Shown in pieces: positions 3,195-53,316 of a stretch of 64,000 nt of DNA (position 1 is its first letter; each line of letters begins with the position of its first letter). The notes below the pieces were generated by a model. The model searched no databases. It worked only from the letters and a program-made list of their open reading frames with translations, and was not told where the DNA came from. Origin of the DNA: Gammaproteobacteria bacterium (GTDB taxonomy: Bacteria > Pseudomonadota > Gammaproteobacteria > Pseudomonadales > Azotimanducaceae). The translations under genes and the position numbers were made by a program. The stretch lies in assembly GCA_026706385.1 (NCBI GenBank), contig JAPOYV010000047.1, positions 62,001 through 126,000 of the forward strand, in the 5' to 3' direction.

Positions 3195-4295
3195 TCACGG
3201 CAGCCGCGCCACGATTTCCGGCTCCGCCGGCTGCATATGCCACGGCGGCAGACCCTGCGCCATGGCTTCGAGGTCGTCCGCGACCATCCGCCCGATCAGG
3301 TTCGAGTCACCTTCGATGCTGCCGGCGCGATGGGCGGACAAGACCACGTTCGGCGCGCTGCGGATAGGGTGGTCGGCGGGCACCGGCTCCTCCGGGAAGA
3401 CGTCGATCGCGGCGCGGAAACGACCGGCGTGCAGCAGTTCCGTCAACGCCCCAAAGCCGGGTCCGGCACCTCGCTTGCGCTCGGCGCCGGCTCCGCCTCC
3501 GGCCCAAGGCCACGCCGACCCCGCATGAAACAAGCGCCGCCGCTCGCTGCGCTCGCTCTGGCATTTGTTTCATCCGAGGGGTCGAAGTCGACCACGTGAG
3601 CTCGGCTCATCAGCACGAACACCGCGTCGGGGCGGATCAGTTCCAGCATCGCGCGATCGATCTCGGCCTTGTTTTCGACGGAAGGGATCGCGAGGACGAA
3701 GATGACCCGGGCCTGGGACAGCAATTCGAAGAGCGGCATCGGCTCGACGCCCTGGTCTTTGAGGTACGCCTCCGTGCGCCAGGGGTCGTAGGCCACCAGG
3801 CGACAACCGAAAGGCTCGATGAGCGGCTTCAAGCACTGGGCGAGGCCGCCGAAGCCGATGAACCCCACCGTTTCGCCGTACAGCGTGAACGTCCCCACGT
3901 TGCCGGGCCACAGGTACTTCTCCCCGCCGGCGCGGAACGCCTCGTGCCCGGCGGTGATCTCCCGGGCCGCGTCGATGGCGAGGCCCAACGCCATCTCGGC
4001 GACCATGGGTCCGAAGGCTGGCGCGCAACTCAAGACCCGGATGCCCTTTGCGCGGCAAGCGTCGTAGTCGACGGCGGCCGGGCTCGGATGGCGGCCGCCG
4101 ACTTCCAAGATCGCGCGCAGCTTCGGACACTGGCTCACCTCGCCGTAGCGCCAACGCGTGGTGACCACCGCGAAGGCGTCGGCGCGGTGCTGCTCGAACA
4201 TCCCCTCCGGCATCAGTTCGTCCCGCGAGATCGTCGGGGTGGAATATCTCCGCCATGCGGCGGAAGTTCGGGTCGAGGATGACCTTTTTGGCCAT
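3195..4295 (-). pseudogene. Broken D-2-hydroxyacid dehydrogenase with a palindromic insertion
   Basis: Three reading frames together encode one D-2-hydroxyacid dehydrogenase. The N-terminus (MAKKVILDPNFRRMAEIFHP) starts at 4295. Near 4225-4240 the coding frame shifts, and the following sequence appears to lack some residues expected in the family, suggesting a small deletion. The middle carries the Rossmann motif GFIGFGGLAQ. After VVDFD at 3581-3583 the frame enters a 131-bp insertion (3450-3580) and then hits TGA. The true continuation, ALTELLHAGRFRAAIDVFPEEP, resumes in another frame at 3449 and runs to 3195. Since 131 is not a multiple of three, the insertion also shifts the frame. Two independent lesions make loss of function likely. 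Sequencing error could explain the first lesion but not the insertion. Confidence 0.85.
3450..3580 (-). repeat. Palindromic dispersed element, copy A (inside a gene)
   Basis: This 131-bp segment interrupts the dehydrogenase between VVDFD and ALTELL. It opens with a hairpin whose 9-bp perfect arms lie at 3525-3533 and 3565-3573 (ATGAAACAA and its complement) around a 31-nt loop. A GC-rich conserved core follows. On the minus strand the core beginning GCGGGGTCGGCGTGGC is identical over about 29 bp to copy B at 53101-53242, and similarity continues into the motif ccggac-cggct-tggg at the end. It encodes no protein of its own and resembles, in principle, the small palindromic elements that insert into coding genes in Rickettsia. 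Confidence 0.8.
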
Positions 4296-53058: not shown

Positions 53059-53100
53059 ACCCCCCTCCTCTGTGTTCATGTCACCCTCGCCTTCGCCCCG

Positions 53101-53242
53101 CATGGAACAGGCGCCAGAGGGAGCGTACGCGACCGGCGGCGTTTGCTCCATGCGGGGTCGGCGTGGCCTTGGGCCGGAGTCGGCGCGCCGCAAGCGGCGC
53201 GCCGGTGCCGAGCGCGCGCGAGGTACCGGACACGGCTATGGG
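53101..53242 (+). repeat. Palindromic dispersed element, copy B (intergenic)
   Basis: This copy lies between the divergent esterase and crotonase genes. It starts with a hairpin whose arms are at 53101-53109 and 53144-53152 (CATGGAACA with TGCTCCATG), and continues with the conserved core GCGGGGTCGGCGTGGC at 53152 onward. It differs from copy A by a 16-20 bp extra palindrome (GGCGCGCCGCAAGCGGCGCG-type) near 53182. Stem changes are partly compensatory: GG/CC here against AA/TT in copy A. It occupies most of the 258-bp gap and lies 75 bp before the crotonase start. Confidence 0.78.
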
Positions 53243-53316
53243 CGCTCGATGCCTTCCGCGACGACAAGCAAACACCGCTACCATACGCGCAAACTTGGAG
53301 CCTCGCGGAGTCACTG

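Follow-up and report, generated by a model that had tools for sequence, protein, structure and literature searches.

A dispersed mobile palindromic family with a mostly one-sided target motif interrupts a dehydrogenase gene in a gammaproteobacterial genome

What is the sequence that splits a D-2-hydroxyacid dehydrogenase gene on the minus strand (positions 3195-4295) of the window, by which we mean the entire 64,000-nucleotide stretch of DNA analysed here? The encoded protein can be read as far as the residues HVVDFD, where it breaks off, and it resumes at ALTELL in another frame (Table 1). Both pieces hit a single Pfam domain, the NAD-binding PF02826, which they cover at positions 1-133 and 136-178 of its 178-position profile. 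Pairwise alignment with the ortholog in the nearest genome (L031 in G007, 91% protein identity) reveals a single clean insertion of 131 bp at the site of the break. The protein is uninterrupted across this site, and free of the segment, in all 31 dehydrogenase loci compared with the window; five genus loci had entered this set twice under two names, leaving 26 distinct loci, and the remote L062 (25% identity) was omitted. The sequence-only reading, which took the gene to be split by foreign DNA, is thus borne out, and none of the homologs carries the segment as ordinary coding sequence. Near the 5' end of the gene (4240-4295, minus strand) a further 35 bp, overlooked by the sequence-only reading, are missing relative to L031, with a change of frame, so that the gene is either doubly damaged or mis-assembled there.

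Table 1. Features of the interrupted dehydrogenase gene and of the two element copies in the window
Feature	Position	Strand	Basis or remark
Net insertion, absent from the empty ortholog L031	3450..3580 (131 bp)	-	Pairwise alignment
Element copy 1, canonical orientation, CT + YSCATG... to ...GGGGCG	3447..3578 (132 bp)	-	Covariance-model match 3445-3578 takes in the right-hand dinucleotide
Hairpin 1, long imperfect palindrome	3519..3579	-	Inverted repeat; covariation
Hairpin 2, inner stem-loop	3463..3490	-	Consensus outer helix extends to the GGGGCG right end
Right-junction dinucleotide, TT in the window copy	3445..3446	-	Most copies and the empty G007 site have CT
Dehydrogenase 5' part, 35 bp short near the start	3581..4295	-	Domain match and alignment to L031
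Dehydrogenase 3' part, ALTELL... to stop	3195..3449	-	Domain match and homolog comparison
Element copy 2, apparently between divergent genes	53097..53246	+	Extra palindromic module inside hairpin 2

The same sequence family recurs about 50 kb away in the window, as had been noticed from the letters alone, and searches of the whole genome recover further copies far above chance: at least 18 element matches in a DNA search (40 of 82 candidates scored), and with a covariance model at least 22 at E <= 3.3e-6 and at least 43 at E <= 1 (150 of 7409 candidates scored). The second copy in the window is flanked by genes that by eye look hydrolase-like and enoyl-CoA-hydratase-like, and the extra module in its hairpin 2 is a GGCGCGCCGCAAGCGGCGCG palindrome, with similar modules present in L158, L307, L316 and L319. 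A DNA search across 58 genomes finds matches in 14, own genome included, with no more than 14 to 18 matches listed per genome. When the covariance model was applied to 16 further genomes (15 of the genus and G021), 13 were positive and G012, G013 and G015 gave no match. In a screen of 200 genomes of the family, with 16 candidates scored per genome and stricter filters, 20 are positive, comprising 13 of the 16 from the element's own genus and seven from one other genus; at the level of genera this amounts to two of the 37 sampled. MAG records labelled Gammaproteobacteria or Pseudomonadales, which match the genus loci, bear the isolate codes COS, IRC and RHO, which we take to denote marine sponges. 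Seven identical copies occupy seven different sites in G011, pointing to recent spread, and head-to-tail tandem arrays also occur, for example three copies in L140. Four copy-carrying loci have no match in Rfam release 15 up to an E-value of 1, and a literature search on titles and abstract openings found no description naming the family. Plasmids and phages, queried with one copy, gave no match; the 15-mer right end is present in at least 80 loci of viral contigs, and none of those listed carries the element at E <= 0.001. The suggestion that this organism harbours its own, possibly undescribed, palindromic family therefore holds up: it is a dispersed mobile palindromic family, present in this genus and one sister genus.

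In its canonical orientation, which corresponds to the window minus strand, the element is laid out as CT-YSCATG..AACAAACGCC, hairpin 1, GGTCGGCGTGGC(CT)TGGGCCGGAGGCG, hairpin 2 and CGGCTATGGGGCG. It usually measures 126-132 bp, with 108-111 bp in some divergent copies and a range of 108-153 bp for full-length copies, and its subfamilies differ through paired 1- and 2-base indels. There are two hairpins, with palindromes near both ends and strong covariation: across 102 matches from 100 loci (95 distinct rows), stem positions pair in 95.6% of cells, 21 of 34 pairs are changed on both sides, and none of 500 shuffles reaches the pairing or covariation values, in an alignment that had been fitted to the structure, which favours the pairing values. 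No terminal inverted repeats are seen, the ends CTYSCATG and GGGGCG being unrelated. The two hairpins with unrelated ends led us to reject a simple palindrome or a MITE with terminal inverted repeats, and the unrelated ends together with the lack of target duplication exclude a classical MITE of a DDE transposon. The stems, read on the window minus strand, hold 102 G-U pairs against 45 A-C mismatches, which points modestly to the canonical strand as the one that folds. The window copy itself folds better than its shuffles on the minus strand (z -2.6) and hardly so on the plus strand (z -0.6).

Occupied and empty sites could be usefully compared in 16 cases: 14 from 31 orthologous pairs (L159 being included after closer inspection), L137/L172 and the window. 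The other 17 pairs comprise shared insertions (L158, L190), truncated copies (L183/L343, L317/L328), a chance right-end match (L318) and 12 that are too diverged, deleted or approximate, among which L142 and L185 are approximate but consistent. All 16 comparisons reveal precise insertion. The sequence-only reading had looked to such alignments for a target duplication, and none is found beyond a shared dinucleotide. This dinucleotide is CT in ten of the 16 empty sites, so that for a two-base core six targets are not CT (L146, L156, L188, L186, L182, L150). Of these six sites, five have CT at the left junction; at the right junction three match the ortholog and three have one base in common with it. 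Where the ortholog has CT, nine of the ten sites have CT at the left junction and six at the right. Over all copies, CT stands at both junctions in 78 of 111. From the counts at the six and the ten sites, the left CT appears to move along with the element, with the right dinucleotide belonging to the target. This rule is not proved, given L146 with CC at both junctions, L182 with CT at both against CA in the ortholog, and the four changed right junctions.

The flanks of 112 copies with distinct upstream sequences fall into two types, namely type B, with the right flank ACGG at no more than one mismatch (35 copies), and type A, the remaining 77, of which a filter against tandem copies removed nine to leave 68 sites. 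The right flank of type A is conserved over about five bases, with C or T at +1 in 53 sites, C at +3 in 43, A at +4 in 35 and T at +5 in 28, and the left flank is flat except for a C at -1 in 60. The target motif is thus mostly one-sided, with the right side retained and the C at -1 (60 of 68) as a residue of two-sidedness. Most targets are either CT-YNCA, which resembles the left end of the element itself, or the CTAC (GTAG) at the foot of a REP palindrome; in L191/L349 the REP CGGGACGCCACAAGGGCGTCCCCTACGGG is intact in the empty genome. Since the right flank of a type A site resembles the left end of the element, a copy end that lies next to another copy is itself a target, which would explain the head-to-tail arrays. 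Under a strict hairpin test, which demands complementarity at 8 or more of 9 positions just upstream, 12 of 33 type B sites pass, as against none of 75 type A sites and 0.6% of 540 random positions. The idea that a hairpin immediately precedes each insertion was accordingly rejected, the signal being significant at REP-type sites only. Another repeated hairpin, with a CCGCGAAGCGG core, precedes six copies by eye (L139, L143, L145, L175, L179, L183), and the removal of duplicate upstream flanks dropped some copies that follow this hairpin. Targeting of start codons was likewise considered and set aside: 31 of 108 sites have ATG, GTG or TTG in the target register, and the frame behind is not clearly longer than the two alternative frames (medians 167, 138 and 157 nt). 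Two loci, L250 (G004) and L251 (G010), contain RAYT genes surrounded by GTAG-type REPs, and the element inserts into REPs of this form. Exact matches to ACAAG-N5-CCCCTACGG number three in the RAYT locus L250, with one more at the place of the L251 gene (L289).

Of 122 copies, 83 carry a net insertion whose length is divisible by three (76 when the 114 distinct sequences are counted), the modes being 126, 129 and 132; this excess may partly reflect common descent. Such lengths are also found in 11 of another 13 copies, taken from the sister genus and from divergent members of the genus, 108 and 111 being among them. Open frames are found in 70% of cases against 54% in shuffles of the first 60 distinct sequences; kinship of the copies weakens both the length and the open-frame statistics. 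A non-exhaustive search recovered four copies that lie in-frame inside genes. L186 is inserted in a PPDK_N protein outside the domain, and the empty ortholog shows an open frame of 2760 nt in the conserved phase. L141 lies in a proline-rich protein read in the same frame in the empty ortholog L338. In L162 (an MFS_2 protein) and L173 (an ABC_tran protein) the domain is matched in two stretches, the in-frame call resting on the occupied locus. Across 19 occupied/empty pairs, the codon phase is changed in seven, the same in five (the window, L186, L141, L151, L154) and ambiguous in seven. Some copies fall into genes, and variants with multiple-of-three lengths may for this reason be better tolerated and retained. 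One could tentatively go further and envisage a selfish family selected to be translatable, in which insertion at CTYNCA or a REP foot, lengths kept to multiples of three by compensating indels, and open frames would yield a protein segment of about 43 residues, though we consider this doubtful. The earlier comparison with the gene-inserting palindromes of Rickettsia and Wolbachia is in part sustained: some copies lie in protein genes, and the parallel with Rickettsia is closer than first supposed, with lengths clustering at multiples of three and four copies in-frame. It fails for the window copy, which is out of frame in the dehydrogenase, and for the 35 of 112 copies with a REP-type right flank.

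With regard to the means of movement, the mostly one-sided target, the lack of duplication, the subterminal hairpins and the REP targeting point to HUH-type single-strand transfer, while the CT core at REPs means that IS110 stays a contender. We propose that this is a non-autonomous element moved in trans, most likely, at about even odds (roughly 0.5), by an HUH (Y1) transposase of the IS200/IS605 or TnpA-REP kind. As no autonomous partner was found among the IS110 and Y1 loci compared and the copy-rich genomes are drafts, the enzyme class is taken from the insertion rule alone. A Y1 single-strand transposase would recognise the hairpins of the element and, on the window plus strand, cut after an ATGNRAG or GTAG motif, which would remain 5' of the element. 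It would meet a like motif, CATGSRAG, at the element's 3' end, and the end of one copy could then serve as the target for the next. Such a cut-after-motif model would account for the lack of duplication, the mostly one-sided motif, the REP targeting and the head-to-tail arrays. A six-sequence profile (E <= 1e-5) detects Y1 genes in 14 of 17 genomes, several of them weakly, and RAYT genes with target-type REPs are present in the genus; G011, the site of the recent burst, gives no Y1 match with the same profile and threshold. In a comparison of ends, 16 Y1 loci (14 distinct) from draft genomes share just short matches with the element, so that none of the Y1 genes compared could be put forward as its partner by shared ends. 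Draft genomes often lose multi-copy transposons. A multi-copy Y1-type transposase gene (TTFEFRP...DDHAHFLVEADD) was observed in G000, G003, G007, G008 and G010 (L255, L266, L268, L270, L271, L277-L281, L290), several times at contig ends. According to the excerpted account, TnpA-REP cuts between C and T near REPs (PMC8266576). Against the Y1 reading, the G-U excess hints at folding of the minus strand, whereas the model needs the plus strand, and the junction rule is not clean, the right junction differing at four and the left at one of the ten sites with CT in the ortholog.

The main rival is IS110-type recombination, under which a mini IS110/IS1111 element would be moved by a DEDD recombinase acting in trans with a bridge RNA, the circle junction GGGGCG-CT-YSCATGG recombining into a target CT core. 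This would agree with the predominance of CT at both junctions, with insertion at the CT of the REP CTAC foot and with the strongly covarying structure, and a mismatched core could give mixed junction dinucleotides. IS110 elements are described, in the part of the source available, as using REPs as insertion sites, centred on a short core, and some of their off-target insertions as resembling the donor (PMC11208160); donor-like insertions of this sort would fit the type A sites with their resemblance to the element's left end. IS110 genes (PF01548) occur in eight of 16 genus genomes, and the presence of one each in G000, G002, G007 and G010 is in favour of this rival; however, such matches are most numerous in G015 (19) and G013 (11), both of which are without the element, and G003, G004, G006, G008 and G011, with 16 to 67 element matches, have no IS110 at E <= 1e-5. 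In addition, type A sites have no left-target motif beyond one C, the left motif at REP sites is indistinguishable from the REP, and 30 IS110 loci of draft genomes show just short weak matches to the element (best E 7.7e-4), so that none of the IS110 genes compared could be put forward as its partner by shared ends. We regard this explanation as rather unlikely. Another site-specific recombinase (for example of the tyrosine type) acting on the CTYNCA identity, or an IS91-like rolling-circle enzyme, appears similarly unlikely. The resemblance of the target to the element's left terminus and the conservation of the right flank speak for it, and rolling-circle HUH elements show one-sided targets, which counts for the IS91-like version, but REP targeting would be left unexplained.

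Retroposition of a structured RNA, with 5'-truncated copies, draws on the partial copies of the element. The right-end pattern GGCTNTGGGGCGCT has 32 matches in G011 against none for the reversed pattern, and several of the 20 loci retrieved for right ends lying beyond the full-length copies already listed have the 3' part only. When checked, however, the truncated copies L183/L343 and L317/L328 look like later deletions, flanking DNA also being lost relative to the orthologs, and L318 is a chance match to the right end; L319 and L322 were not alignable with their orthologs. With full-length copies having precise left ends and no Rfam match, we find retroposition very improbable, and its derivation from right-end-only copies was rejected on the truncated copies checked. 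Several partial copies in the G011 and G007 loci L303-L322 keep just the right part. Of the 22 matches from one search, 12 were used; the other ten, short matches to a single stretch of the query, were dropped. The orphan right end L086 (G000) was considered as part of a longer element and discarded, the listed ORFs containing by eye no transposase-like frame. An immobile conserved structured sequence or an assembly artefact has nothing more than the draft state of most assemblies in its favour; it is refuted by the empty orthologous sites, and the seven identical copies at unrelated sites and the uninterrupted homologs also stand against it, leaving it with next to no probability.

Comparison of the element with described systems brings out several partial likenesses. 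PATEs of Haloquadratum are likewise too short for a transposase and, in the excerpted description, have near-terminal palindromes, no terminal inverted repeats and no target duplication (PMC3119063). Their palindromes are similar to ones found in IS605-type transposons of the same organisms, whereas no such partner was found here among the loci compared, and hairpin 1 abuts the end of our element, unlike the near-terminal palindromes of PATEs. SMR-A of the same organism, at about 110 bp, also inserts without target duplication into palindromes of other elements, with its mobilisation unexplained in the portion of that source at hand, as here; SMRs have prominent terminal inverted repeats, which the element lacks (PMC3119063). 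Rickettsia palindromic elements, as far as extracts of their descriptions go, are about 150 bp long, lie in some cases in-frame inside genes and have open frames, as here (PMC10969869, PMC3733652); by description rather than by comparison of sequences, the element is set apart from them by its two hairpins, its defined target motif and its REP targeting. GTAG REPs and TnpA-REP share with it the hairpins and a CT at the cleavage or insertion point, according to the passages seen (PMC8266576, PMC3733652). REPs are described there as 20-40 bp long with a GTAG tag, whereas the element is longer (108-153 bp), has two hairpins, is without the tag and inserts into REPs, so that an identity as a GTAG REP is excluded by length, hairpin number and insertion into REPs. 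IS621 and other REP-targeting IS110-type elements are reported, in similarly partial accounts, to insert at a CT core in REPs, as the element does (PMC11208160, PMC1525189), but our element has no recombinase of its own and no left-target motif at non-REP sites. On the whole its behaviour comes closest to that of the Haloquadratum PATEs and SMRs and, where it lies in genes, to that of the Rickettsia palindromic elements, with membership in none of these established.

In our view the element belongs to an already known kind, the small non-autonomous palindromic element, and what is unusual here is its target rule and its frame-compatible lengths. If the reading of selection for translatability were true, the family would be a counterpart of the Rickettsia palindromic elements outside the Rickettsiales, one whose insertion rule is defined and whose mobility has not been described. 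The mobiliser and the insertion rule of small palindromic repeats are often obscure; the empty sites, target rule, recent identical copies and in-frame copies of this family make the movement of such repeats and their possible incorporation into proteins directly testable.
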